Source: an uncultured bacterium
Lineage (GTDB): Bacteria > Cyanobacteriota > Vampirovibrionia > Gastranaerophilales > Gastranaerophilaceae
Reading direction: 5' to 3'
Length of the DNA stretch: 64,000 bases
Assembly (NCBI GenBank): GCA_902795965.1
Contig: CADBNI010000021.1
Location: 1 to 64,000, forward strand
Translations under genes and position numbers: made by a program
Notes under the pieces: generated by a model
Databases searched by the model: none
What the model was told of the DNA's origin: nothing
The model's input: the letters and a program-made list of their open reading frames with translations, nothing else
Shown: positions 23,435 through 60,463 of the stretch, piece after piece
How positions within the stretch are numbered: the first letter of the stretch is position 1
How the letters are laid out: each line of letters starts with the position of its first letter

Positions 23435-23609
23435 TTAGAGGGAAGAATAGTCTTTTGATAATAGCATGCTCTGTTTGCCCTCACTTGGCTTCTTAGCTGC
23501 TTTACCTCTTATGTTAACTTTTGTAACATAAGTTTGAAAATTCGTTAAAGTTTCATGCTAAAAAAGCCGTCTATACGATTGAAAGATTACTAAAATCGAA
23601 AGGAAAACA
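23435..23609. other. Intergenic region with repeat-like tail and promoter
   Basis: It contains a GAGGGAAGAATAGTCTTTTGATAATAGC string related to the repeat near 33390-33415, then the promoter-like signal described below. Confidence 0.5.
23545..23570 (+). promoter_or_regulatory. Sigma-28-like promoter of family paralogue 1
   Basis: TTAAAG (23545-23550) and CCGT (23567-23570) with 16 bases between. The same pair at the same spacing precedes the other two paralogues (53535 and 63045). The TAAAGTTT start and GCCG box resemble the flagellar sigma-28 consensus, with spacing one base longer than in E. coli. Confidence 0.55.
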
Positions 23610-25670
23610 ATGGGACTGGCTGCTTCACAAGCAAGATTTTTAGCCATAACGGCAAGAAAAATGAACTGTGAATTTCAATCCATGCAGGTTGCACAGGAAA
23701 AACTTTCCGTTACTCGTGATTTGCAAAGAGCTGCAAATGACTATCAGACTGCTTTAGATGCGACCAAACTCATTTGGGATACGGGCGATACCGATATTTA
23801 CGATTTGTCTTACGGAATTATGATGACCCCGTCCGTACTTAATGATTATGATCCTTATTTAATTACTGATACAAAAGGTAAGATTTTGTTGACCGATCAA
23901 ATGTTTAATGCTGCGGTAGCTGCGGGCATTATTGATGAAAACGGTGATCCGATTGTTTATAGAGATGAAAATCAGAGATTGATAGGGCCGAGAATGGTCG
24001 GTGCTGATAACACGGAAGCCGGTATTACGGCAGGTGTAAATGACGGTTCGCGTAACGCATTTTTGTATCAATTAGGTAAACTTAACCAGATTGACGGTGC
24101 TACCGTTGATGCTATTTTAAATCTTGGTAATGAAGGGTATACAAAATCAGGTATCGGAGGACCGATATTTGATAAAACTTCGGCTAACGCTCTTTCTACA
24201 AATGTATTTATAGATTATTTGAAAACCGCTACTTACGGAAATACCGGTACTATGAATACCGTTCAAGCTATGAAAAAAGGAACGACATCTCAATATGATG
24301 TATTGTATGCAAATGATTATACGGGTTCTGACGGTGTATTGCATACTGCAGGTTCCGTAAAAATTAATAAAGGAGCAACGTTATCCGAAGATACAAACGT
24401 AAAAATTATATCTTATGCTGCGGGAGATACGATTGACAGAAACCTGACGTACAGATTGTCCGCAAATACTACTGCACAAAATGATGGTAAAATCGGCAAT
24501 ACAACTTATACTGCAGGACAGACAATTACTGGCGGAACTTTACAATTCTCAACCGGCGATAAAACTCCGATAGCATTTTCGGTTGCGATTGAAACAACCG
24601 AAGCTCAGCATAAAAAAGATGATCCTTTATTCGCCATTAATATAGTTGATATTCTAAACCCCGGTAACAGTACGGGTACGGATTACATTGTTAACACAAA
24701 ACAGCTTTCTGATGGTGCGGGTGATCAATTCTCAATTACAAAAGGCGGTCAGGCACTTTCCGCAAATAATTTGGAAAAAGTTACTCTCGGTGATATCGTT
24801 TCGGGTAAATATCAGATAACATTTAAACAAGGTGCAAAAGGCGATTATAAAGAAGCATTTACTACTGTATTAAAAGCTATGGCGGAAAAATTGGGCTTGA
24901 ATGCTCCCAATACTGGTTTAAATATTGACAGTGAATCAGATTCGGCATTACAACAGGCTTATGAATTTACCAAAATGCAATTAAACTTGGATAAACTCAC
25001 AAAGATTGATTCAAACGATATTGCTCAGTTATACAATAAAGCTCAAGAACAAAACAATGTTATTCAAAGTGAAAACGGTCAATATTATTCGTTAAGTTTG
25101 ACAAATATCTTGAAATCTTTCCTGACAAACTTTGCCGTTGCATTGGAAGGTTTTGACTGCGGATATGTTGTTAATAATACTTCGGCTAAAGAAAGTGATT
25201 ATGTAACAAGCGATTTGGATTATTACTTTATTCTTAAAAATGACGGCGCAATGACCGACAGGACAATGCTAAATGCCGACTTTTACAATATGATTTATAA
25301 CCAGATTTCAACAACGGGTGCCTGCTCGGATTCAACAAAACGTGAACTGGTTATGGATAACGGATATTTGCAACAGGCACTTAAAAACGGTCAGTTGTTT
25401 ATATCTTCGTTGAATACGGATGGATATTTCTATCAGGGGCCTTATACTCAAAACGGGCATGTGGCGGAAGTGCAAGATGAAGATGCAATCGCTCGCGCAG
25501 AGGTTGAGTATAATGTTAAGAAAAGCAAATTGAACTACAAAGAAGAAACATTGGAATTGCAACTGAAAAACCTCGATATGGAGATTTCTTCATTGACTAC
25601 GGAATTTGATACGGTCAAAAATCTAATAAGCAAAAACGTAGAAAAAGTGTTCACTATGTTTAGTACATAA
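23610..25670 (+). CDS. MGLAASQAR-family protein, paralogue 1
   Basis: A 686-residue protein of unknown function. The N-terminal 50 residues (MGLAASQARFLAITARK then CEFQSMQVAQEKLSV) are predicted helical and shared with the proteins at 53589 and 63097. The C-terminal 60 residues (DEDAIARAEVEYNVKKSKL to NLISKNVEKVFTMFS) are coiled coil and shared with 53589. The middle is beta-rich, Asn/Thr/Asp-rich and unrelated between paralogues. Conserved helical ends around a variable middle recall flagellin and hook-associated proteins, but I see no sequence match to them. There is no Sec signal peptide. AAAGGAAAAC precedes the ATG. A sigma-28-like promoter and a terminator bound it. Confidence 0.85.
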   Translation: MGLAASQARFLAITARKMNCEFQSMQVAQEKLSVTRDLQRAANDYQTALDATKLIWDTGDTDIYDLSYGIMMTPSVLNDYDPYLITDTKGKILLTDQMFNAAVAAGIIDENGDPIVYRDENQRLIGPRMVGADNTEAGITAGVNDGSRNAFLYQLGKLNQIDGATVDAILNLGNEGYTKSGIGGPIFDKTSANALSTNVFIDYLKTATYGNTGTMNTVQAMKKGTTSQYDVLYANDYTGSDGVLHTAGSVKINKGATLSEDTNVKIISYAAGDTIDRNLTYRLSANTTAQNDGKIGNTTYTAGQTITGGTLQFSTGDKTPIAFSVAIETTEAQHKKDDPLFAINIVDILNPGNSTGTDYIVNTKQLSDGAGDQFSITKGGQALSANNLEKVTLGDIVSGKYQITFKQGAKGDYKEAFTTVLKAMAEKLGLNAPNTGLNIDSESDSALQQAYEFTKMQLNLDKLTKIDSNDIAQLYNKAQEQNNVIQSENGQYYSLSLTNILKSFLTNFAVALEGFDCGYVVNNTSAKESDYVTSDLDYYFILKNDGAMTDRTMLNADFYNMIYNQISTTGACSDSTKRELVMDNGYLQQALKNGQLFISSLNTDGYFYQGPYTQNGHVAEVQDEDAIARAEVEYNVKKSKLNYKEETLELQLKNLDMEISSLTTEFDTVKNLISKNVEKVFTMFST

Positions 25671-47298: not shown

Positions 47299-47679
47299 AT
47301 GGGATATATTCATTGCTGCGGTGCTTTACACAAGACTAAAACGTTTCGTCTTGCACCGCAGGAAAACTTTTTGCTGTGCGAACTCGATTATCTCTCTAAA
47401 TGTCCCGTGTGCGGACATACGGTCGTTCAGCTTACAAGAATTAATAAAAATGATGACATTTCGGTCGTCAGAAGAATTAATAAAAAAGCAAGAGAATTTT
47501 TTGAAAAATTGAAATCGAAAATTCTATATGAGATAAAACCTATCAATTATAACTTAAAAAATGTCGGAAGATTTTATCTTAATTATAACGAATTTGGTGT
47601 AAAAAAGAGGTGCTATTCAAATCTCAGAACACTAAAAATCGGATTGCATGAAAATAAATACCTAAAAATCAACCCTTAA
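47299..47679 (+). CDS. Small zinc-ribbon-like protein at the phage block edge
   Basis: A 126-residue basic protein. It has MGYIHCCGALHKT, then CELDYLSKCPVCGHTVVQL, so paired cysteines could bind zinc; the rest is Lys-rich (KKAREFFEKLKSKI). I chose ATG 47299, with GGAG about ten bases upstream. Function is unknown; the position at the left edge of the phage-derived genes suggests it belongs to them. A terminator follows. Confidence 0.65.
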   Translation: MGYIHCCGALHKTKTFRLAPQENFLLCELDYLSKCPVCGHTVVQLTRINKNDDISVVRRINKKAREFFEKLKSKILYEIKPINYNLKNVGRFYLNYNEFGVKKRCYSNLRTLKIGLHENKYLKINP

Positions 47680-47693
47680 TCTTTTATCTCTCA

Positions 47694-47721
47694 GGGCGGA
47701 TTTTTCCGCCCTTTTATTTTT
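47694..47721 (+). terminator. Intrinsic terminator
   Basis: GGGCGGA (47694-47700) pairs with TCCGCCC (47705-47711), followed by TTTTATTTTTT. Confidence 0.88.
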
Positions 47722-47791
47722 TAGGAAATATTATGAATGATTTTAAATAATTTTCCGTTATGCTGATAGATGAGACAAAAAGGGAACAGGT

Positions 47792-48049
47792 ATGCTAACT
47801 TCAAAGGAATTAGAAGTACTGTCATTGGTTGCATTAGGGTATTCTGATAAAGAAATCGGATATATACTTAAAATATCTTACGGTACGGTAAGAAACCACA
47901 TAGACAAATCAATACTAAAATTATGTGCGCAAAACAGGGTTCATGCAGTCATGATTTATAAATTCAGTCATAAAGATTGGTTAGAGGATATTTATGAAAA
48001 GAATAATAATTCACTGGACTGCAGGAACATATTACCCTACCGGTTATGA
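47792..48049 (+). CDS. LuxR-type HTH protein
   Basis: An 85-residue DNA-binding protein with the GerE/LuxR helix-turn-helix: LTSKELEVLSLVALGYSDKE then ISYGTVRNHIDKSILKL. It has no receiver or autoinducer domain. Its 3' end overlaps the amidase gene by 56 bases, so the two are coupled, and it may control the lysis gene or the phage block. Phage late-gene activators of this size are known. Confidence 0.82.
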   Translation: MLTSKELEVLSLVALGYSDKEIGYILKISYGTVRNHIDKSILKLCAQNRVHAVMIYKFSHKDWLEDIYEKNNNSLDCRNILPYRL

Positions 48050-48488
48050 AAAAGAACATTATCATTTTTTGGTTGATAAAGATGGAAATATTCATAACGG
48101 TAAATTTAAACCCGAAGACAACGAAATATGTAAAATAAATAAGTATGCAACGCATACGGGTGGAGGTAACACCGGCTCAATAGGAGTTGCATTATGCGCT
48201 ATGGCAGGATTTAAATCCAAAACTTGTGTGGGAAGTTACCCGATTGAGAAAAAACAGTTTGAAAGCTGTATGTGTTTTTGTGCAGAATTGGCAAAAAAAT
48301 ACAAAATCAATATTACACCTCAAACTCTTATGACCCATTATGAATTTGGATTGAAAAACCCCAAAACCTCGAGTGCGGGGAAGATTGATATCGTATATCT
48401 TCCCCCCTACCCGTGGGTTGAAAAAAATGAAGTCGGAAGTTTTATAAGATCTAAAGTGAAATGGTATTTGCAAAGAAGTGAGAAGTGA
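47994..48488 (+). CDS. N-acetylmuramoyl-L-alanine amidase (endolysin type)
   Basis: A 164-residue Amidase_2 (T7 lysozyme fold) enzyme cutting between muramic acid and L-Ala. Zinc ligands are expected in RIIIHWTAG (first His), LMTHYEFG (second His) and the loop with GKIDIVYLPP. YHFLVDKDGNIHNG is the family strand pair. There is no signal peptide, so export would need a holin; the 76-residue protein at 62676 is a candidate. GAGG precedes the ATG within the LuxR-type gene. Confidence 0.9.
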   Translation: MKRIIIHWTAGTYYPTGYEKEHYHFLVDKDGNIHNGKFKPEDNEICKINKYATHTGGGNTGSIGVALCAMAGFKSKTCVGSYPIEKKQFESCMCFCAELAKKYKINITPQTLMTHYEFGLKNPKTSSAGKIDIVYLPPYPWVEKNEVGSFIRSKVKWYLQRSEK

Positions 48489-48591
48489 AAGGCGTGAGAG
48501 GTTCTTATCTGTGCGCCTTCGGCGCAAATAGCTATACCTCTATTCATCCTCTTTATTCGAACTTCTCACTTGCTAAAAAAAGGAGAAAATT

Positions 48592-50100
48592 ATGGAAGCT
48601 GTTTATTACAATTTGTCGGGCGGTGTTAATCAGGCTTTGACAAAAACAGAATTAGGTGCTGATACAAAACGAATTTATTGGGCAGATTCGCAAAATGTTG
48701 AAATCCTTCAAAACAGAGGGATTATAAAGCAAAAAGGGAATACTCTGTTTCTCGAAATAGGTGAAGAAATTACGGGTCTTGCCGAAATGAAAGCATATGA
48801 TGTCAGCAAAATGGTTATCACAACCGTTACGGGCAAAATTTATATTTATGATGATGCTCATTCTCTAAAAACGCTTGTAGACAAAACTCTTACGGGGGTA
48901 AAACCCGTTTTTCAAAGTTTTTTGAACGGTATTCTTGTTATGAGTGAAAGCGACGGGCTTTTTTATATAAAAAATGATAATAATTATACCGTTGTTAATT
49001 GCAATTTGAACGATTTGTCGGGAAATATTTTGACGGGCGGAGTTTTGACCGTTTATAAAGGCAGAGTTTGGGTTGCAAAAGATGCAACACTTTATTTTTC
49101 GGCTCTCGGAAAATATGACGATTTTACAACGCCTGATGATGCCGGTTATATGAACGAATTTCATACCGATACAGGTTTGATTACCGCACTGAAACCATAC
49201 AAAGATTATTTGGCTATATATAAAAAAAGTAATGTATATCTTTTGACGGGTACAAGTCCGAGCGATTTTGCTATTGTTCCTTTTGCGGATATCGGAGCTT
49301 TCGGAACAAATTCCGTTGTCAACGTAGAAAATAAACAATATTTTTTGAGTAACGGAATTTATGCACTTGAACAAATCGGTGAACTTAATCAAATTCAGGT
49401 TGGAAGTGAAATTTCAAAAAATATTAAAGAAGAATTTAACTATTTTATTAATTTGCAAAATGCAGTAGCTTTGCATTATGAACGAAAAAATCAGATTTGG
49501 TATTTTTTCCCGTATTACGGAAAAAATTATCTAAACACTATTTGGATTAACGATTACGTCAATAAAGCGTGGTACAAACGTGTTTTACCGCAAAATATCG
49601 TTAATGCCTGTGTATTTAAAGATTATATTTATACAGCTGATGCGGACGGTAATATTTATAAAGAGGATTTTGGAACATCATTTGACGGTGAACCGATAGA
49701 ATTTTTCTGGAAATCTCCGTTTTTGGCGATTACAAATATACATCACAGAAAAATTATTGATGAATTTTATTTTCTTTTGGATTCGCAATATGATAACAAT
49801 TTCGACTTTTCCGTTTATAAAGATTATGACGAAGAATATTCGGACGATTTGGAAAAAATATTTTCTGTTCATCCGACACACATGATTTGGGCTGATGAAA
49901 ATACTTCTGATGATTTGCCCTGTCATTGGACGAATGATGACGAAGAAGTACCGGTTTGGTCGGTAACAAAAGATTTTATGGAAAAAGCAGAAATCTCGGA
50001 AGCTAATTATGCCGTCCAACTTTGTGTATCGGGAACGGAAATTACTCAAGCCTGTGCAATTATCGGATTGCAGTTCAGAGAAATTTATAATGACGATTAA
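48592..50100 (+). CDS. Phage structural protein, tail-hub/propeller-like
   Basis: A 502-residue protein with propeller-like strand repeats (NRGIIKQKGNTLFLEIGEEI, TVTGKIYIYDDAHSLKTLVD, GGVLTVYKGRVWVAKDATLY). Its N-terminal NLSGGVNQALTKTELG and the reading of bound-site values are typical of podovirus tail stabilisation or hub proteins (P22 gp10-like), judged from memory. It immediately precedes the coat gene. AAAGGAG precedes the ATG. Confidence 0.7.
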   Translation: MEAVYYNLSGGVNQALTKTELGADTKRIYWADSQNVEILQNRGIIKQKGNTLFLEIGEEITGLAEMKAYDVSKMVITTVTGKIYIYDDAHSLKTLVDKTLTGVKPVFQSFLNGILVMSESDGLFYIKNDNNYTVVNCNLNDLSGNILTGGVLTVYKGRVWVAKDATLYFSALGKYDDFTTPDDAGYMNEFHTDTGLITALKPYKDYLAIYKKSNVYLLTGTSPSDFAIVPFADIGAFGTNSVVNVENKQYFLSNGIYALEQIGELNQIQVGSEISKNIKEEFNYFINLQNAVALHYERKNQIWYFFPYYGKNYLNTIWINDYVNKAWYKRVLPQNIVNACVFKDYIYTADADGNIYKEDFGTSFDGEPIEFFWKSPFLAITNIHHRKIIDEFYFLLDSQYDNNFDFSVYKDYDEEYSDDLEKIFSVHPTHMIWADENTSDDLPCHWTNDDEEVPVWSVTKDFMEKAEISEANYAVQLCVSGTEITQACAIIGLQFREIYNDD

Positions 50101-50147
50101 ACACCACTCATATAGTCAGTACTAAAAAAAGAAAGGAAAACAAAAAA

Positions 50148-50999
50148 ATGACAAATGCTTACTCCGCGTTTATTCCGGAAATCTGGAGCCAAAAATTGAG
50201 CAATATGCTCCAAAAAGAATGCGTAATGCTTCAATGTGTAAACAGAAACTGGGAAGGTGAAATTAAAAATCAGGGTGATAAAGTAAAAATTATTACTCCC
50301 GCTAATGTTACGGTTTCAACTTTAGGGGACAGTAATATTACATACAACGAACTTACCCCGACTTCTCAAGAATTGGTTATTGACCAGAAAAAATTCTTTG
50401 CGTTCAAAATAAATGATGTTGCTGCGGTTCAAGCGAACACAGATATTATGGAAGCTCATCTTCAAAATGCCAAAAAAGCTATTGAAGTTGTTCAGGATTC
50501 TTATCTGTTGTCTATGCACACAAGCATACAAGCTCCAAATATCGTTGGCGGTGACGGTTCACCCGTAACGTTGACAAAAGAAAATATTTATTCTTACTTC
50601 GTTGAACTTGCTTTGCGTTTGAAAAATGCTAATGCGGTTACATCAGACAAACGTCCCTGGGTGGTTATTAACCCGAAAATTGAAGCCGTATTGCTGCAAA
50701 GCCCCGAATTTATCAGTGCGCATAACGTTGCTGATGAAACTTTGAGAAACGGTGCAATCGGCAGAGTTGCAGGCATGGATGTTCTTGTAACAACAAATCT
50801 TGTTGCTATTTCAAATAAATTTTATGTTCTTGCCGGTACAAACGAAGCAATTACATTTGCATCTCAGCTTGCAAAAATCGAAAGCCTCAGAGACAAAGAC
50901 AGCTTCTCTGATTTAATCAGAGGCTTGTACTTGTATGGCGCAAAAGCCGTTAACCCGACTGCTTTGGTAAAAATGGTAGTATCGGCATCTGCCGAATAA
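50148..50999 (+). CDS. Major capsid protein, P22-coat-like
   Basis: A 283-residue coat protein. The N-terminus SAFIPEIWSQKLSNMLQK then NWEGEIKNQGDKVKIITP is the characteristic start of P22-type coat proteins, which adopt the HK97 fold. KNANAVTSDKRPWVVINPKI and ATNLVAISNKFYVLAG belong to the peripheral domain. AAAGGAAAAC precedes the ATG, and expression is likely strong. It is followed by a small protein and the scaffold-like gene. Confidence 0.9.
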   Translation: MTNAYSAFIPEIWSQKLSNMLQKECVMLQCVNRNWEGEIKNQGDKVKIITPANVTVSTLGDSNITYNELTPTSQELVIDQKKFFAFKINDVAAVQANTDIMEAHLQNAKKAIEVVQDSYLLSMHTSIQAPNIVGGDGSPVTLTKENIYSYFVELALRLKNANAVTSDKRPWVVINPKIEAVLLQSPEFISAHNVADETLRNGAIGRVAGMDVLVTTNLVAISNKFYVLAGTNEAITFASQLAKIESLRDKDSFSDLIRGLYLYGAKAVNPTALVKMVVSASAE

Positions 51000-51013
51000 C
51001 TTTGAGGTAAAGT

Positions 51014-51244
51014 ATGTATAAAAATTTGAAAAGTACAATTAAAGAGTTGGCAAAATCTGCCGTTGTTATTGCCGAAAAAACTCTCGGAAGCAACAAAGGT
51101 AAAGAAAAAAAGAAAATGGCGATTGAATATATAATCAGCCGTATTCCTGTGCCGACTTTTATAAAACCGCTTGTTTCAATGCTGTTATCTTCATTTATTG
51201 ATGATGCGGTTGAATTTGCGGTTGAATATATGGAGGCAATATGA
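51014..51244 (+). CDS. Small hydrophobic phage-block protein
   Basis: A 76-residue protein with a basic middle (GSNKGKEKKKMAIEYIISRI) and a hydrophobic C-terminal helix (PLVSMLLSSFIDDAVEFAVE). It could be a holin or a virion accessory protein. It overlaps the next gene by 4 bases (ATGA), so both are coupled. Confidence 0.7.
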   Translation: MYKNLKSTIKELAKSAVVIAEKTLGSNKGKEKKKMAIEYIISRIPVPTFIKPLVSMLLSSFIDDAVEFAVEYMEAI

Positions 51245-51834
51245 ACGAAACAACAAATATTTCATCACAAACCGATAATCAAAATTCAAGTGTTAAAACT
51301 GCTAATGAAATTAAACAAAAAGCAGTTGAGGAAATCAAACTGATTGAAAATCTTGTTCAACAAGGAATTATGACAGAAGAACAGGGACTAAATTTAGTGA
51401 ATATTATTACAAAACAGGCATTTGAAAAATATACACAAACAAGTTCTAATTCCGAAGAACAAACTCCTGCAAAAACTTTGACGGAAACTCCCGAGTTTTT
51501 TCAAAGAGAAGGCAGAACCGATGTTTTTGATTATTTGAAAAACTCAAACGCTGATTTTGATGATGATGAAATCTCAAAAATTTCCTCTCTCGTGGAAAAA
51601 ATTGAAAATTCCGCAATAGAAAGATTTTTGAAACAACAAGAACACGAAAAAACATTAAATAGCGAAAACGAATCCGCAAAACAAAGATTGCGTGCCAATG
51701 CACAAAACTCTGTTTCTGACGGTGCAACAAACTTGGTTTTTACTCGTGAACAAATCGGTAAAATGAGTGGTGCGGAATTTGCTAAGCACGAACGTGCAAT
51801 TATGGACCAATTAAAAAAGGGTCTTATAAGATAG
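51241..51834 (+). CDS. Scaffold-like capsid assembly protein
   Basis: A 197-residue acidic, Gln/Asn-rich helical protein, lacking hydrophobic segments. It has the coiled character of scaffolding proteins (AVEEIKLIENLVQQGIMTEE) and ends FTREQIGKMSGAEFAKHERA, a C-terminal motif I associate with phage scaffold/head proteins that bind coat. It follows the coat gene rather than preceding it, the opposite of P22. Called from composition, position and the C-terminal motif. Confidence 0.72.
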   Translation: MNETTNISSQTDNQNSSVKTANEIKQKAVEEIKLIENLVQQGIMTEEQGLNLVNIITKQAFEKYTQTSSNSEEQTPAKTLTETPEFFQREGRTDVFDYLKNSNADFDDDEISKISSLVEKIENSAIERFLKQQEHEKTLNSENESAKQRLRANAQNSVSDGATNLVFTREQIGKMSGAEFAKHERAIMDQLKKGLIR

Positions 51835-51851
51835 CAAATATGGTCTTTTGG

Positions 51852-51877
51852 GAGAAAACGGTCTTGACCGTTTTCTC
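51852..51877 (+). terminator. Intercistronic hairpin
   Basis: GAGAAAACGG (51852-51861), TCTTGA, CCGTTTTCTC (51868-51877). It has no T-run, so it may be an attenuator or RNA-stability hairpin between the scaffold-like and connector-like genes. Confidence 0.6.
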
Positions 51878-51898
51878 TTGAAAGCGGAAAGGATTATT

Positions 51899-52537
51899 AT
51901 GAACTACATTGATATTATTAACAAATGTTTGGTTGAACTTAATTACAAAACAGTTAGTGCGTTCTCCGAACTTACTAAAAACGATCACAAAAAACTAAAA
52001 AATATTATAAATATGATAAACACGGAAATCTGTCTGTCTGACAGATGGAATTTTTTGGAACGAAAAATTACACTTACGCTTCCTGCTAATACAGGTGAAA
52101 TTGTAAATACTATTCCGGGCAAAATTGAAGCTCTGTTTATTGACGGACAAAAATACGAATATTTTCAGGATTTTGAAAAATTTTTTACAAATACTCAACC
52201 ATCGGGAACGTATTCGCTTTATGACGACAAAATCTTATTGCCGATTTTTAATCGCGCAAAAGAAGTGAAAATACTCTACTATACAAGCAACTGCGCAAAA
52301 ACTTTTGAAGGTACGGAAAAACCCTCTCTTGAAAACGCTGATGATATTTCGCTTATCCCCGAAGTTTTTGCCGAACCTTTGCTTGTTTACGGAGGTTGTA
52401 TGCGTCTTAAAGGAAATCCTCAGCATATACGTTTCAGCTATTGGCTGAAAATGTATAATGATGCACTTGCAAACCTGCGTTCAAAAATTTCGGCAAGCAT
52501 GGACGAAACCCCGAATGTGAAAATGAGCAGATATTAA
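51899..52537 (+). CDS. Head-tail connector-like protein
   Basis: A 212-residue protein. MNYIDIINKCLVELNYKTVS begins a helical domain followed by LTKNDHKKLKNIINMINTEI, and then a strand-rich part with PGKIEALFIDGQKYEYF. The layout resembles P22 gp4-like connectors. I chose ATG 51899 because AAAGGATTATT precedes it; an earlier in-frame start would run through the hairpin at 51852. Confidence 0.7.
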   Translation: MNYIDIINKCLVELNYKTVSAFSELTKNDHKKLKNIINMINTEICLSDRWNFLERKITLTLPANTGEIVNTIPGKIEALFIDGQKYEYFQDFEKFFTNTQPSGTYSLYDDKILLPIFNRAKEVKILYYTSNCAKTFEGTEKPSLENADDISLIPEVFAEPLLVYGGCMRLKGNPQHIRFSYWLKMYNDALANLRSKISASMDETPNVKMSRY

Positions 52538-52935
52538 TTTTCACACAATACTCTATCTAAAATTATGCCGCTCGCGTAAAACGGCATCGTTCGCAATCAA
52601 AACGAAAAACGTGGTTTCCGTTTATGATTGCTCAACTGTCGAAATACTTCGTATTTCTCCTGCCTCTGTGGCTACGGATTATTCGGAGGATTGTTATAAA
52701 TCCGTTTGCGTTAAACGGTAACGCTCACAACAACAACGAAAGCTCAACGTTTTCGTTGTTTGTTGTTCGACTTTCGCTACGCTCATACCTCTGCAAACGG
52801 ATAAAAAAAACAGGAAGTTTAAAATTCATTTTCCCCTCCTGTTAAGATTTACACTAGCCGAAATATAAATAGCATGACTATTATATAATTTTTTTCAAAA
52901 AATTTCAAATAATACAAAGTTTTGTTACAAAAATT
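52538..52935. other. Highly palindromic non-coding region
   Basis: No gene is supported. Many paired arms are visible: ATCCGTTTGC (about 52698) with GCAAACGGAT (about 52794), GAAATAC/GTATTTC near 52635-52655, AACGAAAG...CTTTCG-type arms, and AACAGGA with TCCTGTT near 52810-52846. The region could be a structured RNA or a transposon-like hairpin element. Confidence 0.55.
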
Positions 52936-53364
52936 ATGAAAAAACTTACTCAGCAACAAAAAATTTTCGTAAAAGAATACATAAAAACTCTTGATGGAGA
53001 GCTTTCCGTTAAAAAAGCAGGCTATAAAACAAAAAATGCCAAAACTTTTGCGGAACAACTTCTTTCTGATGATTTGGTCATAAAAGAGATTAATCGGCAG
53101 TTGAGGGAGCAAATAAACTCATTGCAGGTTAATAAAGGCTATGTGATAAAAAAACTTTTGCAGATAGCGGAATTTTCGCTTGAAGAAGAAGATATTACCG
53201 ATAAAGACGGAAATTATACGGGCAAAAAAAAGCTCCGCGATACATCTGCGGGGCTTAAAGCCCTCGAAAGCCTCTGCAAATATCTCGGTTTTGCAAAAGC
53301 GGAAGATGAATACAAACCCGCAAAAATAATTACAATTTCTAATCTTGATGAAAAGAAAATCTGA
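52936..53364 (+). CDS. Phage terminase small subunit
   Basis: A 142-residue DNA-recognition subunit of the packaging motor. LTQQQKIFVKEYIKTLDGEL then VKKAGYKTKNAKTFAEQLL is the Terminase_2 HTH, followed by the oligomerisation helices (VKEINRQLREQINSLQVNKG) and a C-terminal tail. There is no clear ribosome site and the start has an AT-rich leader. The large subunit is 7.7 kb downstream instead of adjacent. Confidence 0.88.
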   Translation: MKKLTQQQKIFVKEYIKTLDGELSVKKAGYKTKNAKTFAEQLLSDDLVIKEINRQLREQINSLQVNKGYVIKKLLQIAEFSLEEEDITDKDGNYTGKKKLRDTSAGLKALESLCKYLGFAKAEDEYKPAKIITISNLDEKKI

Positions 53365-53365
53365 A

Positions 53366-53505
53366 AAGTTGGATAAGTTTGATAAGTTTGATAAGTAAGG
53401 TAAGTACTTATCGGTTAAATTGTACCCGCTTTGACTTAAAAAAGGTATATCTTTTGATACGTACTTAACAAACTTATCTTACTTACCCAACTTATCAAAC
53501 TCCAT
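53366..53505. repeat. GATAAGTAAG-type palindromic repeat, copy before paralogue 2
   Basis: A left array of GTTGGATAAGTTTGATAAG units, a centre containing TACCCGCTTTGACTT, and a right array of inverted units. The same arrangement with an almost identical centre recurs at 55312-55441, directly after paralogue 2. Confidence 0.8.
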
Positions 53506-53534
53506 TAACATTTCTTAACAAACACCAAAAATAT

Positions 53535-53560
53535 TTTAAGTAAAAGCAAAAATCGACCGT
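53535..53560 (+). promoter_or_regulatory. Sigma-28-like promoter of family paralogue 2
   Basis: TTTAAG (53535-53540) and CCGT (53557-53560) with 16 bases between, matching the spacing at 23545 and 63045. Confidence 0.5.
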
Positions 53561-53588
53561 ATACCTATACAGAAAGGTGTCGAAAATC

Positions 53589-55310
53589 ATGGGAATGTCC
53601 GCCTCGCAAGCGAGATTGTTGAGTATAACGGCAAGATTGACGAACAACGAATTTCGCTCGCAGACAATTACGAATGCTAAACTCAGACTTGCAACAGAAT
53701 CAAAACAGGCAAGTCAGGTTTATATGGATTCTTTAAATTCTCAGGAATTGATGTATATGTATTACGGTGAGGACGGTGAAAATCAAAAATTTGAACTTAC
53801 CCCCTCAATTATTTATGAATATGCTCCGTTAAAAAATCAGTTTGCAATGATTAATCCTTCGGGAAAAATGCTTGTATCATATACGGATTCGGAAAACTTT
53901 AAAAATACGACCAATCTTTATGATTTTCTTGATTGCTATGGGCTTGTTGAAGACAGAGAAATTGTTATAAAGAAAACTCAAGTACGCAATCCTGATTATG
54001 ATGATTATTTGGAAAAAGTTAAAGAATGGGAAGGTGAAAAGCCCGACCCTGATGACTATATGATTACAAAGCATCGTCAAGTTCCCGACGGAACAATTCA
54101 AACATGGAAACATACCAACAGTAAAGTTTATGATGCCATACACGATATCAGTTGTTTTGGAATAGTACAGAATACCGGTCAGCGTTGTTATATGCACGTA
54201 TTGGCGGCACTTTTGGGGCGCGGTACTTTTACGACAAGTGACGGAAATACCTTTACTATTCAAAGGGAAGAAGATATCGGTTGGAAATGGAACAGCTGCT
54301 CTGATGAAGAAGCCCGTACAATGGACTCTCTGAGAGAAGAAATGAAAAGTGATCCTGTCTATGATCAAGCCTATGACGGTCAGCTCAATACTGAAGCTCA
54401 TGGTATTGTTTCAGTTGGCGGTGACGGTTCTGATGCTCTGAAATATAATGCGGAAGGGGGAGGTAACTGCTGGCAAAAATGTATTGATTTGGCTTGGGAA
54501 CTTCATTGGGGTTATGACGGTTCTTCAACGGGCGGGCACGCAACCGAAGATGAACTTAAAAAATTCTGGTATTTTGTAGAACTCGACCTCGGTGACGGTT
54601 ATATGGAAGAAACCGAACAGTATAAAGATGAAGAATATGAAGAACCTGATAAAGATGCCTATGATGATGCTGTTGAAGAATGGGAAAATAATGAACCTGC
54701 CTCCGTTCCAATGACTATTGTTGCTTATGAAGAAACACAAGGCGATATTATTGTAAACGATAAAGACAAATCTCAATGGTACACCAATCTTTGGCATAAA
54801 ATGAACGGTTCGGATACCGCAAACCTTGTAAGATTAAAAAATAGAGATAAAGACGGTGACGGAACATATACTTCCGATTTTATTGTTCCGTACATTGAAA
54901 AAAGTACAAAATCCGTTAATTACGAAGTTTTTGACGAAAATCTCGTAAACAATGCGGAATGGCTTCAATTTGCACTTGAACACGGTGTAATATCTCTTGC
55001 GCAGGCTCAGTTCTATGACCCTTCACAAGACAGTGAAAAAGTCTTTGAAACAAAATCCGATGCTATAACCTGGCAATCAATAATTTACACAAATGCCCCC
55101 GATATTGTGTCACAAAATGACGAAGAAGCAATCGCAAAAGCCGAAGTTCAATACAAAAAAGCATTAAAGAAAATTCAAAGTAAAGATAAAAAATACGACC
55201 AAGACCTTAAAAAACTTGATGCCGAACACAATGCACTTCAGACCGAATATGAATCAATAAAAGAAATTATTCAAAAAAATACGGATCGCTCATTTAAAGC
55301 ATTCAGTTAA
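53589..55310 (+). CDS. MGLAASQAR-family protein, paralogue 2, in the phage block
   Basis: A 573-residue protein of unknown function. N-terminal helix MGMSASQARLLSITARLTNN is shared with paralogues 1 and 3, and the coiled C-terminus EAIAKAEVQYKKALKKIQSK to RSFKAFS is shared with paralogue 1. The middle is acidic with Trp/Tyr-rich segments and repeated Asp/Glu (EYEEPDKDAYDDAVEEWENN), unlike paralogue 1. No signal peptide. I chose ATG 53589 by comparison with the other two starts; an upstream GTG overlaps the ribosome site. It is flanked by two near-identical GATAAG-type repeats and lies between terminase and portal genes. Confidence 0.82.
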   Translation: MGMSASQARLLSITARLTNNEFRSQTITNAKLRLATESKQASQVYMDSLNSQELMYMYYGEDGENQKFELTPSIIYEYAPLKNQFAMINPSGKMLVSYTDSENFKNTTNLYDFLDCYGLVEDREIVIKKTQVRNPDYDDYLEKVKEWEGEKPDPDDYMITKHRQVPDGTIQTWKHTNSKVYDAIHDISCFGIVQNTGQRCYMHVLAALLGRGTFTTSDGNTFTIQREEDIGWKWNSCSDEEARTMDSLREEMKSDPVYDQAYDGQLNTEAHGIVSVGGDGSDALKYNAEGGGNCWQKCIDLAWELHWGYDGSSTGGHATEDELKKFWYFVELDLGDGYMEETEQYKDEEYEEPDKDAYDDAVEEWENNEPASVPMTIVAYEETQGDIIVNDKDKSQWYTNLWHKMNGSDTANLVRLKNRDKDGDGTYTSDFIVPYIEKSTKSVNYEVFDENLVNNAEWLQFALEHGVISLAQAQFYDPSQDSEKVFETKSDAITWQSIIYTNAPDIVSQNDEEAIAKAEVQYKKALKKIQSKDKKYDQDLKKLDAEHNALQTEYESIKEIIQKNTDRSFKAFS

Positions 55311-55311
55311 G

Positions 55312-55441
55312 GGGTTTGATAAGTTGGATAAGTAAGATAAGTACTTATCGGTTAAATAGTACCCGCTTTGACTTCAAAAGGGTATATATTTTGTAAAGCA
55401 CTTACCAAACTTACCTCACTTATCTGACTTATCATACTTAT
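55312..55441. repeat. GATAAGTAAG-type palindromic repeat, copy after paralogue 2
   Basis: Same centre (TACCCGCTTTGACTT) and arms as 53366-53505, in direct orientation. The two copies bracket paralogue 2. Confidence 0.8.
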
Positions 55442-55463
55442 AAAAAAAGAAAGGAAACAAAAA

Positions 55464-55814
55464 ATGAAAAACAATGATGCGGAAGAACTGCTTCTGAACG
55501 GAGCTTCTCTTGAAGATTTAATCAAAATGAAGATTGAACGCGATTTTATGGACGATTTGAAAAAATCTCAAGAAAAACCAAAACCGAAAACTTACACTAA
55601 AATCCAAGATTTACCGAAAGAAAAAATTTTTTCAAAAGATGCGATTTACAGATGTTTTAACCGTAATGCAAAAAGTGAAAGCTATATTAACGGTATACAG
55701 GCAGATGCAATGCTCGGACTTCAAAATCACATAAGAGAAAAATTATTGAACGGTGAATTGGACGCATTTACAACAGAAGATGCGTATGTGAAGTTTGACA
55801 AGGCGGTGTTTTAA
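55464..55814 (+). CDS. Phage-block protein of unknown function
   Basis: A 116-residue helical, charged protein (LIKMKIERDFMDDLKKSQEK, then KDAIYRCFNRNAKSESYING). Not assigned to a family. It ends 1 base before the GTG start of the acetyltransferase gene, so both are one operon with the portal gene. AAAGGAAAC precedes its ATG. Confidence 0.7.
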   Translation: MKNNDAEELLLNGASLEDLIKMKIERDFMDDLKKSQEKPKPKTYTKIQDLPKEKIFSKDAIYRCFNRNAKSESYINGIQADAMLGLQNHIREKLLNGELDAFTTEDAYVKFDKAVF

Positions 55815-56315
55815 GTGCCGAAATTTTTAAACCCTTTTGAAAAACCTGCTTATTTAGAGCAGGCTTTATTTTTATATACAAAATATTCTAAATTTCTTGA
55901 TGATGATTATGCCCGAAACGGCATGTCGATTTATGACTATTTTGTAAATCTTATTAAGCACACTTCTCCGTTTTTTTACGTGATTGTTGAAAATGATGAG
56001 GTTTGCGGGTTTGTTTATTTGAGTAACATTATCGGAGATAATAATCGTCTGCATTGTGCCGAATTGACAACCTGTTTTGACAAACGCTACTGGGGAAGTT
56101 ACACAAAAATGTGTGCAATTATCTTTTTGAATTTTTGTTTTGAAGTTTGCGGATTTGAAAAGATAAAAGTCCTTGTTTATCCCGACAATGTGCGAACTAA
56201 AGCTCTTATGAATTATATGGGATTTAAAAAAGAAGGATTGTTGAAAGGTGAAACTTTAAGAAATAACAAATTGCAGGATATAGAAGTTTATGCTTGCAGA
56301 AAGGCGGAAAAATGA
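55815..56315 (+). CDS. GNAT-family acetyltransferase
   Basis: A 166-residue acetyl-CoA-dependent transferase. The core VIVENDEVCGFVYLSNIIGD, the acetyl-CoA loop region LTTCFDKRYWGSYTKMCAI, and the C-terminal KIKVLVYPDNVRTKALMNYM with GFKKEG match the RimJ/RimL-type GNAT fold. It starts with GTG directly after the previous stop. Located inside a phage structural operon, it might acetylate a phage or host protein, but the target is unknown. The stop overlaps the portal start (ATGA). Confidence 0.85.
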   Translation: MPKFLNPFEKPAYLEQALFLYTKYSKFLDDDYARNGMSIYDYFVNLIKHTSPFFYVIVENDEVCGFVYLSNIIGDNNRLHCAELTTCFDKRYWGSYTKMCAIIFLNFCFEVCGFEKIKVLVYPDNVRTKALMNYMGFKKEGLLKGETLRNNKLQDIEVYACRKAEK

Positions 56316-57961
56316 ATTTTGAAACAGAAGATTTTACTGTAAAAATGAAAGAAAATGATGAACAATTTTTAATCGGCAAAATTACCGATATGTTTGACAA
56401 ATTTAATGACGACAGGAACACTCAGCTTTCGGACATTAAAATGGTCAGAGACGCAATTTACAACTCTGATGTCCCTCGTCAAAACGGCTGGGATACGAAA
56501 ATTGAACTCCCCGATATTTATGAACTTGCTCAAACCCTCAAATCGCATATCAGTCAAAACCTCTATTCACACCCTGATGCTATGTTTGATGTTTCGGGAA
56601 CGACTCCTCATACGCAAAGCCTTGCAAACAGACAAAAGGCAATGCTTGTAAATACTCTTGAACAAATGAATATTGAAGATGAGATTGAAAAGGTTATTGA
56701 CGGAATTGTGGAAACGGGCGAAAGTACCCTTTTTGTCGGTTGGGAAACAAAATTTAAATCAATAAGACGCGCACAAACTTTTGAAGAACAGCTTAAAAAT
56801 CCAGAAAAAAAAGGGTTTGTTGTTGATGAAAAAGTTATTTACGATAACGCAAAAATCAGACACATAAAATCCGAGGACTTTGTTTTTGACAAATATAATG
56901 CCGAAAATTGGGATAAATGTGCAAAAATTTACAGGACTTATGCGACAGTTGACGATTTGTTCTGTGATAAATCGAATAATCTTTTGGACGATATGAAATT
57001 GGAAATTTTGAAAGGAGTGGTGGCAAACAACAAAAACAGAGAAGGTGTGGAAGGTAAAAAACTGGAAATTCTTGAATATTGGGGAGATATTGAACTTTCT
57101 GACGGAACTTTGTTGAAGAATTGGCTGATTGTTACGGCAGGCAGACGAGAAATTATAAGATTTGAGAGCAACCCTTTTATTATAAATCCTTTTATACACG
57201 CTAACATCATCGAATCTCCTCAGACAGGCAGAGGCATTTCGCCTCTGCGGGTTGCTCTTGTTCTTAATAATCTTGCATCAACAATTTTGAACAAACAAAT
57301 TGATGCGCTTGCTCTGATGATGAATCCTCCGTATCTTGCTCCGAAAGGCTGTTTTAAAGGTCAGCAGGACGTAAGACCCGGCAAAATTATTGAATATGAT
57401 GCCGCATTAATGCCTCAAGCTCCTACACCTTTGTCTTTTGACAAAGCTATGGTCGGTTGGGATTTTTTGAATTATTTTAAATCAACTATTGAAAGTGCGA
57501 CAGGTATTTTCAAAAATATGGCGGGAAATCTTCAATCCGCCGAACGTACCGCAACGGAATTGAATTACTCCGTAAGCGGTCAGGAGGCTCGTTTGAATAT
57601 GATTTTGGATTCTATAAACAGAAAAATCATTATTCCCATGGTTGAAAAAACGGCGGAAATTATTTCTTATTTCAAATTAGGCAAAGAACTGGTTTGTGTA
57701 AATGACAGAGGTAAAACGAGCTTTATTGAAGTTGATGATGATGTCAGAAACGGTAATTATATCTATCGTTACGGCGACAGAAGTGCGACATTTGAACGTA
57801 AATCGAGATTTCATGAGCTTTTTGAAGTTGTTCAATCGTTTGCTCAAGTTCCTGAAGTTGAAGAAAAAATTGACTGGCTTGAGTGTTTCAAGTTTGCACT
57901 TGAACAGTACGGAATTGAAAACGCAAACAATTTCTTGTTGGAAGATAAACAGGTGCCGTAA
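56312..57961 (+). CDS. Phage portal protein
   Basis: A 549-residue head-vertex portal. The typical start (LIGKITDMFDKFNDDRNTQL) precedes NGWDTKIELPDIYELAQTLK and a central part with GILRRIFG-like features replaced by ESPQTGRGISPLRVALVLNN, then TGIFKNMAGNLQSAERTATE and the C-terminal stalk. The length fits podovirus-type portals of medium size. Translationally coupled to the acetyltransferase gene. It ends in a terminator that overlaps its stop codon. Confidence 0.88.
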   Translation: MNFETEDFTVKMKENDEQFLIGKITDMFDKFNDDRNTQLSDIKMVRDAIYNSDVPRQNGWDTKIELPDIYELAQTLKSHISQNLYSHPDAMFDVSGTTPHTQSLANRQKAMLVNTLEQMNIEDEIEKVIDGIVETGESTLFVGWETKFKSIRRAQTFEEQLKNPEKKGFVVDEKVIYDNAKIRHIKSEDFVFDKYNAENWDKCAKIYRTYATVDDLFCDKSNNLLDDMKLEILKGVVANNKNREGVEGKKLEILEYWGDIELSDGTLLKNWLIVTAGRREIIRFESNPFIINPFIHANIIESPQTGRGISPLRVALVLNNLASTILNKQIDALALMMNPPYLAPKGCFKGQQDVRPGKIIEYDAALMPQAPTPLSFDKAMVGWDFLNYFKSTIESATGIFKNMAGNLQSAERTATELNYSVSGQEARLNMILDSINRKIIIPMVEKTAEIISYFKLGKELVCVNDRGKTSFIEVDDDVRNGNYIYRYGDRSATFERKSRFHELFEVVQSFAQVPEVEEKIDWLECFKFALEQYGIENANNFLLEDKQVP

Positions 57962-57972
57962 GGCACCTGTTT
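57947..57972. terminator. Bidirectional hairpin at the portal gene end
   Basis: AAACAGGTGCC (57947-57957), loop GTAA, GGCACCTGTTT (57962-57972). The portal stop codon is in the loop and the convergent membrane protein gene ends at its right arm. Confidence 0.88.
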
Positions 57973-58324
57973 ATTTATAAAAAAACAACAGGTATATTAC
58001 AAAAATTGTAAATAATATTATTGGGATAAAATTCATTACAAGTCCGATAATCGTTATAATTCGTGCAATTTTGTATTTTGAATTTATTACATATTTTCTA
58101 TTCTTAATACCCAAACAAGTAAATATGACAGTCAGTACAATTTGTAATATGTAAAACATAAATATTTGTACGAAAGTCATTATCGAATAAAAATCGTCTT
58201 TGTGTTCAACAAAGTCGTATTTTATTGAATTTGGAATATAAATAAACAGAAAAAATAACCATACAAAAAATGATATATATCCTAATAATGATTGCAAATT
58301 GGTAAAAACAGATTGAATATTCAT
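57971..58324 (-). CDS. Four-helix membrane protein in the phage block
   Basis: A 117-residue, very AT-rich ORF encoding about four hydrophobic segments (LLGYISFFVWLFFLFIYIPN, MTFVQIFMFYILQIVLTVIF, IGLVMNFIPIILFTIFVIYL). It is on the opposite strand to the phage genes and has AAAGAAAGGAG upstream. The function is unknown. The strand, composition and location suggest a later insertion, perhaps an immunity or exclusion protein. Confidence 0.65.
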   Translation of the reverse strand: MNIQSVFTNLQSLLGYISFFVWLFFLFIYIPNSIKYDFVEHKDDFYSIMTFVQIFMFYILQIVLTVIFTCLGIKNRKYVINSKYKIARIITIIGLVMNFIPIILFTIFVIYLLFFYK

Positions 58325-58351
58325 AAGTATATTTTATTACAAAGAAAGGAG

Positions 58352-58735
58352 TTAGTTTTTTATGTATATAAATATTGTATCAACTATAAAAAATAATATT
58401 GGAATACAGGAGAAATAAAATAATACATTAAAAAATATAAAAGACAAATTATTGAAATGCTTTATTTTAAATGAAGGTTTGTTACTTGGAAAATATTTCT
58501 TAACTAAAAACTCTCGTACAAATATTTCAATAATTAGAAATACCAATGAAAACATATACAAAATGCAAGAAAAATATAAAGGTACAAAAAATTTAATCCC
58601 CGAAAATAAGTATATTTCATTTTGTTCTCCGGTATTAAAGTATTTGTATAAAAAATATATTATTAATAGTGCAAAAATTATATAGAAATAAGAAAAAACA
58701 TATTTTCTAAAATCTAATATTTTCATAACACTCAT
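58352..58735 (-). CDS. Second membrane protein on the opposite strand
   Basis: About 127 residues with three to four hydrophobic segments (YIIFALLIIYFLYKYF, VPLYFSCILYMFSLVFLIIE, FIFFNVLFYFSCIPILFFIV). I start at ATG 58735, although a downstream ATG at 58726 or an earlier start is possible. Very AT-rich, like its neighbour. Possibly a paralogue of the preceding gene; function unknown. Confidence 0.55.
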   Translation of the reverse strand: MSVMKILDFRKYVFSYFYIIFALLIIYFLYKYFNTGEQNEIYLFSGIKFFVPLYFSCILYMFSLVFLIIEIFVREFLVKKYFPSNKPSFKIKHFNNLSFIFFNVLFYFSCIPILFFIVDTIFIYIKN

Positions 58736-58771
58736 ATTAATACAAATTAAATTAAAAAGAAAGGAAAAATT

Positions 58772-59017
58772 ATGAAAAACAATAAAAATAAAACACAACA
58801 AATTCTTAGACAGTTACAAAAAAATTAATGGCTGAAAAATTAATAAAAGAAATATCAGAAGTTAATAAAATGGCTAACGATGAACAACTTCAAAAAAAAT
58901 ATAATGATGAAATTGTTAAAAAACATGGGATTATCAAAAGAAATTTGATTTTCCTTCAACGGCGACGAAGGACATTGGGTAACAATTAACGGAAACCGTG
59001 TGCTTATTAATGATTAG
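58772..59017 (+). pseudogene. Broken effector tail
   Basis: The last codons (58958-59014) encode FNGDEGHWVTINGNRVLIND, nearly the same C-terminal tail as the intact lipase-like protein at 59597-60463. Upstream the frame is broken: a short ORF (58772-58828) and another beginning at 58828 (MAEKLIKEISEVNKM) lie in a different frame, and an in-frame TGA (58946-58948) precedes the tail. It looks like a truncated, frameshifted relative of the effector. Confidence 0.75.
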
Positions 59018-59057
59018 TTTGTTTGACAGAAATAATAAGAAAGATATAATAATATTT

Positions 59058-59522
59058 ATGAAACGAATAATTTTATTAATTTTAATATTAATTTTGTCAG
59101 TACCTTCGGTATTTTGTGAAACCTTCACACCGATTGGAGTTCCGATGACAAAAGAAACGCACCCGATTACTTTCGGATATTTTGAGGATTATGCGGCGCA
59201 GTTGAAACATGCATTGGAGAAATCGAAATTTTATCGCCGCTGCGGTTGGGGTGCGGCTTACAGATATATAGTTACTCGTGCAGGAAAAATAGAAGAAATC
59301 AAAGGCTCAATTTTTCAAAACGATTATTATGACGAACAGATAAAATCGGTTATATTGTCCGTCAAACCCGAGCCTTTTAGAGAAGGTATGGACTATGATG
59401 ATGTTCTTGTTGATGTATATCTCGGATTTGAAAAATATAATGAAAAAACTATATCAGTGGGAAATTTTTTACCAAAACAACGAGATATCGTTGATATAAC
59501 TATTACAACTAAGAAAAGATAA
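59058..59522 (+). CDS. Secreted TonB-C-like protein, putative immunity partner 1
   Basis: A 154-residue exported protein. Signal peptide LLILILILSVPSVFC, then a small alpha/beta domain (FGYFEDYAAQLKHALEKSKF, YRYIVTRAGKIEEIKGSI, VILSVKPEPFREGMDYDDVL) similar to a TonB C-terminal fold. The paralogue at 60495-60968 shares this core (ILSVKPLPFREGME). TATAAT (59045-59050) lies 7 bases before the ATG, with no ribosome site. It follows the broken effector tail; an immunity role is inferred from position. Confidence 0.72.
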   Translation: MKRIILLILILILSVPSVFCETFTPIGVPMTKETHPITFGYFEDYAAQLKHALEKSKFYRRCGWGAAYRYIVTRAGKIEEIKGSIFQNDYYDEQIKSVILSVKPEPFREGMDYDDVLVDVYLGFEKYNEKTISVGNFLPKQRDIVDITITTKKR

Positions 59523-59542
59523 TATAAAAATTTATACAGTTT

Positions 59543-59571
59543 TTCAACCGCCTTTTAAAAAGGCGGTTGAA
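59543..59571 (+). terminator. Hairpin between immunity-like and effector genes
   Basis: TTCAACCGCCTT (59543-59554) pairs with AAGGCGGTTGAA (59560-59571). There is no T-run on the right, so termination is uncertain. Confidence 0.55.
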
Positions 59572-59596
59572 TTGTAATGCAAAGAAAGGAGAAAAA

Positions 59597-60463
59597 ATGA
59601 ACAAACATTTTATGTCAAATGAGTACAAAGTATTATGCGGAGAAGCAGACAGATATTCAAAATCCGATCAACAGGGAAAAGAAACCTCAAACGGCTGGAT
59701 AGTTGTTGACAGTCAATATGACAGAGGCAGCAACTTTAAAGGAGTTCTTTATTACAAAAACGGTCAATACGCCCTTGCTTTTGCGGGTACGGATATCAAG
59801 AGCATTAAAGATATCGGCGCGGATATCAAAATGTTTATCAGTGGCGACAGTAAACAAATTACAGATGCTATAAAATTTACAAATAATATGAGAAAAAAAT
59901 ACGGTCTTGATGGCAGCAATACCGTTTCAATCGGACATTCCGAAGGCGGTACGGAGGCTACTGCCGTAGGGGTTACAAACGGAATAAAGACTTATACCTA
60001 CAATGCATATAAGGTTGGTGAACAGTACCTTGAAAAAGGAAAGAACTATGATGATTTGGTTACAAATTACAGAGATCCGCATGATCCGATATCCAAATTG
60101 GGTGCGAATGTCGGTGAAACATACATAGTGCCGAGCAATCAAAAAGGATTGAAGGCAAAGACACCTTTCGGTTACGTTGATGCGCACCGAATAGATAATA
60201 TGGGAGATTGTGAAAAATCAGTTACTCCTCAAGAGTACAAAAGAAAAAATTCGGATTTTGTTGACAAAATCTCGGATGTCGAAATAACACGCGAAGATAT
60301 CAAACAAATGTCACCTGAATTATTTAGTGTCTATGAAAAAGAGATAGACAAAAGAATGGAACAGGGCAGAATAAAACTCGCAAAAGATACTCATACTTCT
60401 TCCAATAGCGGTGACGGGCATTGGGTAACAATCAACGGAAACCATGTACTAATAAATGATTGA
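59597..60463 (+). CDS. Lipase-like effector candidate with a C-terminal tag
   Basis: A 288-residue alpha/beta hydrolase-like protein without signal peptide. The nucleophile elbow is SIGHSEGGTEA (GxSxG), with an Asp in DPHDPISKLGA and a His in GYVDAHRIDNMGD as likely triad members, the pattern of class 3 lipases and phospholipase effectors. The last residues GDGHWVTINGNHVLIND form a tag also present at the broken gene upstream. I chose ATG 59597 with AAAGGAG before it. It is followed by a secreted partner gene; together they could be a phage-carried toxin/immunity pair, with the immunity protein in the periplasm. Confidence 0.8.
   Translation: MNKHFMSNEYKVLCGEADRYSKSDQQGKETSNGWIVVDSQYDRGSNFKGVLYYKNGQYALAFAGTDIKSIKDIGADIKMFISGDSKQITDAIKFTNNMRKKYGLDGSNTVSIGHSEGGTEATAVGVTNGIKTYTYNAYKVGEQYLEKGKNYDDLVTNYRDPHDPISKLGANVGETYIVPSNQKGLKAKTPFGYVDAHRIDNMGDCEKSVTPQEYKRKNSDFVDKISDVEITREDIKQMSPELFSVYEKEIDKRMEQGRIKLAKDTHTSSNSGDGHWVTINGNHVLIND

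Follow-up and report, generated by a model that had tools for sequence, protein, structure and literature searches.

What kind of protein keeps its two extreme ends constant and lets nearly everything between them vary, and to which machinery does it belong? The question is raised by three long open reading frames in a stretch of 64,000 nucleotides of contig CADBNI010000021.1 (hereafter the window), from an uncultured member of the Gastranaerophilaceae, in which a reading made from the DNA letters only (the sequence-only reading) had seen an uncharacterized family resembling flagellins or other exported proteins. The analysis presented here indicates that a second type III apparatus, derived from the flagellum, probably exports these proteins, the two ends being predicted to form a helical hairpin that would serve as export and assembly module and the variable heads being exposed.

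Conserved ends, unrelated middles

All three genes are on the forward strand. Member 1 (23610-25670, 686 residues) consists of an N-terminal helix (23610-23759), a variable middle and a C-terminal coil (25482-25667); member 2 (53589-55310, 573 residues, with an alternative in-frame GTG 12 bases 5' of 53589) has its N- and C-terminal helices at 53589-53738 and 55122-55307; member 3 begins with the ATG at 63097 and has the N-terminal 301 of its 590 residues in the window (63097-64000), its end lying at window-equivalent position 64869 on contig C21. The three reading frames and their common N-terminal helix, as originally proposed, are borne out, the first 50 residues being 42-52% identical. The C-terminal coil had been credited to two of the proteins; the coil is real but the number was too low, for the complete reading frame of member 3, read from the contig, carries it as well (KNIEKSFKRYNA), so that both ends are present in all three proteins, with 37-65% identity over the last 62 residues. 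An early segment common to members 1 and 3 only (residues 51-110, 55% identity) was also correctly recognized, as was the dissimilarity of the middles, which share 20-23% identity among the three proteins and, in the eight full-length members of the genome, a mean identity of 0.23 as compared with 0.22 after shuffling, the corresponding values being 0.48 at the N end and 0.46 at the C end (0.20 shuffled in both cases). In the same vein, the BLAST coverage of member 1 by 91 related proteins is ~90 at both ends and 0-2 in mid-protein. The N end of the family is amphipathic and rich in A, S, Q, N and R, and none of the family N termini resembles a signal peptide.

AlphaFold2 modeling yielded long terminal helices forming a hairpin. 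A 392-residue member (26 aligned sequences; predicted local distance difference test, pLDDT, 88) is modeled with a helix at residues 2-49, a mixed alpha/beta head and a helix at residues 331-391, and member 2 with helices at residues 2-49 and 512-572 and a poorly predicted head; in these models the conserved ends pair as one long helical hairpin carrying the inserted head. In VIA alignments both helices superimpose on two-helix coiled coils such as the SMC hinge stalk (4rsj) and flagellin D1 (5wk6) to within ~2 Å over ~105 residues; the top matches are generic coiled coils (chemoreceptors, SMC), with flagellins among them at Z 8-9, a value that is not diagnostic, and a Foldseek search of the PDB gave no match with E<0.001. 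As far as models can tell, these alignments show a long helical hairpin and not kinship.

The hairpin may also constitute the entire protein. With a profile of the joined ends, the four clear members of the basal genome G341 all turned out to be 109 residues long, the sister families of the window's taxonomic family were found to possess both bare and long members, and the latter family mostly long members plus one bare, which in the source genome is encoded at C14:4143-4472. A further 109-residue member, in the record of ‘Microcystis phage MaAM05’, consists of the two ends, a short loop and nothing else. Sizes range from bare 109-residue hairpins to head-bearing proteins of 800 residues, with inserts of 200-700 residues, and the simplest history is that the bare hairpin came first and the inserted heads were gained later.

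To which known family could these proteins be assigned? Pfam contains no match to the three window proteins at E<=1 and no flagellin, hook or hook-associated protein (HAP) match to 36 family members; more specifically, neither Flagellin_N/Flagellin_C (PF00669/PF00700) in the window proteins and the 36 members nor Flg_bb_rod/Flg_bbr_C (PF00460, PF06429; FlgE/K/L type) in the family gave a match, the PF06429 matches of the genome being three other genes. Pfam, NCBIfam and PDB sequence searches with members and with a profile of the termini returned chance or coiled-coil matches only; the bare 109-residue hairpin found neither a Pfam family, the needle family SctF included, nor a related PDB chain at meaningful E, and the variable heads matched no enzymatic family in Pfam or NCBIfam. 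The sequence-family searches thereby rule out that the family is one of flagellins, hook, rod or hook-associated proteins. The flagellin- or HAP-like architecture initially proposed stands (a predicted terminal-helix hairpin with a variable head), although the hairpin proteins do not belong to those families; the premise that no recognized family is involved withstood the searches of Pfam, NCBIfam, PDB and Foldseek, none of which gave a confident profile or structure match.

A universal, multi-copy family of one order

The source genome (1.81 Mb, 97% complete; its named relatives are Candidatus Gastranaerophilales / Melainabacteria metagenome-assembled genomes of gut origin) yields 18 matches when searched with member 1 and 11 with the N-terminal profile, with E-values down to 2e-27, so that the family stands far beyond chance. 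The three proteins first noticed are therefore genuine members of a larger set, which in this genome comprises at least eight full-length copies, the bare hairpin mentioned above and truncated 5' ends where contigs stop (C5, C34, C62, C65). At the contig ends C5:1-72 and C65:1-72 and at the ends of C34 and C62 the assembly breaks within near-identical family promoters or 5' ends, which implies that the starts of the paralogs are identical over a long stretch, as might result from gene conversion or recent duplication.

When 386 genomes of the phylum were searched with a profile of residues 1-50, 174 proved to have the family. They comprise every one of the 170 genomes sampled from the window's taxonomic family, with 2-17 copies each, all three from two sister families and a single genome of another family of the class; the rest of the phylum gave none. 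The hairpin proteins therefore form a multi-copy family that is universal in one order and occurs in one basal lineage besides. No match was found in a plasmid collection, and the single match in a phage collection is the MaAM05 record (MW495066.1, 128806-136928), a stretch that also carries acpS, scpA and scpB and for this reason looks bacterial and mislabelled as phage.

Sigma-28-like promoters

Upstream of member 1, at 23546-23569, is a sigma-28-like promoter (TAAAGTTTCATGCTAAAAAAGCCG) that, with 20.8 bits, is the best site of the window on both strands, and a second such promoter (63046-63069, TAAAGTTCATGTAAAAAAATACCG, 11.5 bits) precedes member 3. A possible degenerate promoter of member 2 (53537-53559, TAAGTAAAAGCAAAAATCGACCG) is weak, the regional best reaching 2.2 bits, and is not claimed; all three sites are on the forward strand. 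In the source genome TAAA-N16-(G/A)CCG occurs ~30-50 bp 5' of the start codon in seven of ten 5' regions. Among 112 members scored for promoters, nearly all from other genomes, exact TAAA-N16-GCCG was found within 200 bp 5' in 52, compared with one of 511 other genes at the same loci (Fisher p about 5e-43), with a sharp peak at N16 and no peak at other spacings, and a matrix derived from the sites reaches 12 bits or more in 87 of the 112 members and in none of the 511 other genes. The matrix consensus, TAAAG[T/A]TTT-N11-[T/A]GCCG[T/A][A/T]A, is close to that of FliA (sigma-28), which in E. coli is TAAAGTTT-N11-GCCGATAA. Both elements of a sigma-28 (FliA) regulon are found, namely TAAAG..TT-N11-GCCGATAA-like promoters with the spacing TAAA-N16-GCCG and a FliA-type sigma factor; indeed, a FliA/WhiG sigma scoring above the NCBI cut-off is encoded in all 19 genomes tested, the flagellin-less ones included (C61:8054-8716 in the source genome, 237 bits).

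Strong sigma-28-like sites also precede other genes of this genome, which encode a 1676-residue protein without any family (L204:8562-13592), a 303-residue protein with an MgtE_N-like domain (L201:8339-9250), a GAF-HD-GYP protein (L205:5406-6665) and a 141-residue protein (L202:322-747). A further strong site, at L206:4657-4802 (G000:C16:14657), is followed by ~110 nt without a long open reading frame, with a CU-rich UUUCCUCCUUUUCCUC stretch and then a terminator-like hairpin with a U run; this is a possible small RNA of the regulon, for which Rfam gave no match. In the flagellated relatives many flagellin genes (L318, L321, L324, L326 and others) have, shortly 5' of the start codon, a ACAAGGATGTA-like element resembling the CsrA binding consensus.

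A second flagellum-derived apparatus and its link to the hairpin proteins

One operon of the source genome encodes FliE, FliF, a protein without family in the FliG position, FliH and FlhA, and another, on the window's contig, FlgF/G, FlgG, FlgB and FlgC; no PF00669 (flagellin) match occurs in this genome. In the sister-family genome G349 (L304) the equivalent genes are contiguous, in the order FlgG-FlgG-FlgB-FlgC-lytic transglycosylase-FliE-FliF-x-x-FliH-FlhA-FliI, and it is here that the FliI component is evidenced. FliP/Q/R and FlhB have been listed among the flagellum-related genes common to melainabacterial genomes (PMC3787301).

FlhA proteins of this second type group in a clade of their own, set on a long branch with 100/100 support and separate from the canonical FlhA that some of these genomes also encode. 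The second-type FlhA scores 703 against the NCBI cut-off of 772 for FlhA and 591 against that of 692 for SctV; FlhA and FliF are nearer to flagellar than to injectisome models and yet remain under the curated cut-offs. The divergent FlhA is present in 36 of 36 family-bearing genomes, whereas 15 of them have both canonical FlhA (called at 850 bits or more) and flagellin and the other 21 have neither. At a separate locus of the source genome (L030:3947-5425, G000:C59) a ~490-residue protein has only the cytoplasmic C-terminal domain of FlhA; it is found in nearly all tested family-bearing genomes of the order and is possibly a docking decoy for substrates or chaperones.

Physical linkage concerns a four-gene operon encoding a family member, proteins of ~273 and ~90 residues and a bare hairpin, kept in the window's genome (C14) and in G003, G012, G061, G140, G160 and G349; basal G341 has its first three parts, the first member being a bare hairpin. 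In G003, G012 and G061 this operon is located 5-6 kb upstream of FliE-FliF-x-FliH-FlhA on the same strand. At 10 of 80 loci the gene immediately 5' of the family gene encodes an SLT lytic transglycosylase, and PilZ genes also occur among the family neighbours. Co-occurrence with flagellar and type III functions, the check proposed together with the sequence-only reading, is found at several levels, through the sigma-28-like promoters, the universal FliA-type sigma, and linkage to and co-distribution with the second type III apparatus, and so speaks for that reading.

The phage-derived neighbourhood

Two of the window members lie in or beside a phage-derived cluster (47299-62906) with genes for the major head protein (50148-50999), a TerS-like small terminase subunit (52936-53364), the portal (56294-57961), the large terminase subunit TerL (61030-62316) and an internal virion protein; neither tail nor integrase genes were seen among the cluster genes examined. 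A single copy of TerL is present in 22 of 48 genomes and its identity falls with host kinship, and from genus to genus the cluster genes keep the same order and flanks, TerL being followed by a family member and a gene that we take, by eye from its sequence, to be SecA. An ordinary prophage is rejected on these three grounds, and the cluster rather resembles, judging from gene content and distribution, a vertically inherited, gene transfer agent-like element of the Gastranaerophilales. The family gene after TerL, usually with one 76-residue gene in between, recurs in G003, G012, G061, G040 and six viral contigs, while the insertion of member 2 between TerS and a 116-residue gene is, among the genomes compared, peculiar to that of the window. 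Taken as a whole, the family is independent of the cluster.

Throughout the genome many prepilin-like proteins with N termini FTLAEVLITLGIIGVVAAxTMP are encoded on scattered contigs (e.g., L019:19048-19683, L030:9953-10666, L033:4341-5063), several of their genes adjoining small Xre-type regulators.

What the hairpin proteins may do

If the hairpin proteins are indeed exported by the second apparatus, what could be their function? The two conserved ends would fold as a long antiparallel helical hairpin, the putative export and assembly module, which in the ancestral state, at ~109 residues, would have been the whole protein; in the gut lineages, duplication to 2-17 copies per genome would have been accompanied by the insertion of unrelated heads in the hairpin loop. 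Transcription would start at the sigma-28-type promoters by means of a FliA-like sigma kept even where flagellin is gone, and the products would exit through the FlgB/C/G - FliE - FliF - FliH - FlhA - FliI apparatus, with no hook, cap or flagellin. Most likely, the product would then be a short surface appendage in which the hairpins pack together, as its subunits or as those of its tip or sides, with the variable heads facing outward. The more ambitious proposal, namely that an ancient second type III apparatus of Vampirovibrionia/Gastranaerophilales assembles hairpin proteins with interchangeable hypervariable heads into a novel surface organelle, distinct from a flagellin filament and conserved through the entire order of animal-gut bacteria, is offered tentatively, as somewhat less likely than not.

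Several observations weigh against export by the second apparatus. Two other taxonomic families of the class, f4 and f6, have the second-type FlhA and no recognizable family member, so that the apparatus can do without the hairpin proteins; the linkage between the four-gene operon and FlhA is confined to near genera, the loci being apart in G349 and G341; the flagellin D1 helix matches are no better than those of unrelated coiled coils; and member 2, like the bare-hairpin operon in most genomes, has no strong promoter motif. Furthermore, flagellated relatives do not have the N16 motif at their flagellin genes: in 18 of 20 there is no site of the kind, and two show a related one with N15 spacing. 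The N16 sites would therefore define a separate regulon of their own, and since the flagellin genes do not share the motif, it is the resemblance of the consensus that suggests that FliA reads these promoters. Finally, the argument for export is an indirect one, drawn from promoters, operon and co-distribution.

Among the alternatives, the one that survives best, though it seems unlikely, is that the proteins leave through the second apparatus but are then released or injected as effectors, the ends representing an export signal and a chaperone or stabilizing module instead of filament subunits. The very large size of the middles and their lack of relationship, the scattered positions of the 2-17 paralogs of each genome, the PilZ and lytic transglycosylase neighbours and the copy inserted in the phage-derived cluster, reminiscent of prophage-carried effectors, would all fit such a role. 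However, both extreme ends, the last 12 residues included, are conserved, as expected for co-assembly more than for an N-terminal export signal; moreover, bare 109-residue hairpins have no effector domain at all and the heads belong to no enzymatic family in Pfam or NCBIfam. Considerably less probable is a cytoplasmic coiled-coil family (e.g., scaffold or chaperone) whose connection with type III genes is incidental; the generic nature of the coiled-coil structure matches and the indirectness of the case for export speak for it, but the promoter specificity (87/112 vs 0/511), the operon linkage and the co-distribution are hard to obtain by chance.

That the hairpin proteins serve the ordinary flagellum as accessory axial proteins is very improbable: the sigma-28-type promoters, the presence of FliA and the flagellin-like arrangement, with the helical ends conserved and the middle variable, would agree with it, yet the family is universal in the 21 tested genomes without flagellin and canonical FlhA, matches no flagellin, hook or HAP family and is absent from other flagellin-bearing taxonomic families of the phylum (e.g., f6, f7), and this role is rejected on distribution. 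Least credible are structural or release proteins of particles like those of gene transfer agents, for although one member follows TerL in conserved order, several copies occur in genomes without that TerL (e.g., G156, G160, G190, G210, G256), only one or two of ~ten copies are near TerL and, on viral contigs, the majority of the copies next to TerL come with a sigma-28-like promoter of their own.

Comparison with known systems

The literature searched contains no description of the hairpin family, and none that treats the partial flagellar genes of Gastranaerophilales as a separate system maintained in its own right, in keeping with the initial suspicion of an undescribed system. Export of the hairpin proteins by a second apparatus provides a testable hypothesis for the interaction of an uncultured, widespread order of the animal gut with its surroundings, and the series from bare 109-residue to 800-residue proteins would show type III axial proteins gaining variable domains, as flagellins did.

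A close parallel in design is flagellin (FliC), which likewise has helical ends that pack together, a hypervariable middle, no signal peptide, a sigma-28-type promoter and many paralogs. Unlike flagellin, the family matches neither PF00669 nor PF00700, its hairpin is made of one 48-residue and one 61-residue helix, bare 109-residue forms exist and flagellin-less genomes carry it. SctF, SctI and FliE resemble the bare members of ~109 residues in being small proteins, formed by a helical hairpin or helix, whose genes accompany those of an export apparatus; on the other hand, no Pfam or PDB sequence match connects them with the family, whose derived members have inserts of 200-700 residues, and the second apparatus has its own FliE.

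As far as the apparatus is concerned, Buchnera retains basal body and export genes without flagellin, and its hook-basal bodies are thought to serve export (PMC8109811); here, by contrast, the FlhA lineage is separate and anciently diverged, coexists with a normal flagellum in some genomes and is accompanied by a dedicated multi-copy substrate-like family and a sigma-28-like regulon. Non-flagellar type III systems (Abby and Rocha 2012, PMC3459982) also have a flagellum-derived export apparatus without motility genes but differ in that FlgB/C/G rod proteins are retained here and no SctF or translocon family was found. Lastly, gut Melainabacteria were recognized in 2013-2014 to possess partial sets of flagella genes, with flgG, flgC, fliF, fliH, flhA, fliI, fliPQR and flhB among the common genes, also in a filament-less genome, and these sets were interpreted as a degenerating, incomplete flagellum (PMC3787301, PMC4040986). 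The present data indicate instead that a second, distinct system is maintained, together with a family of its own that is likely exported; this would give the partial flagella genes a job, that of a maintained second export system with a sigma-28-like regulon and diversified, likely surface-exposed proteins.
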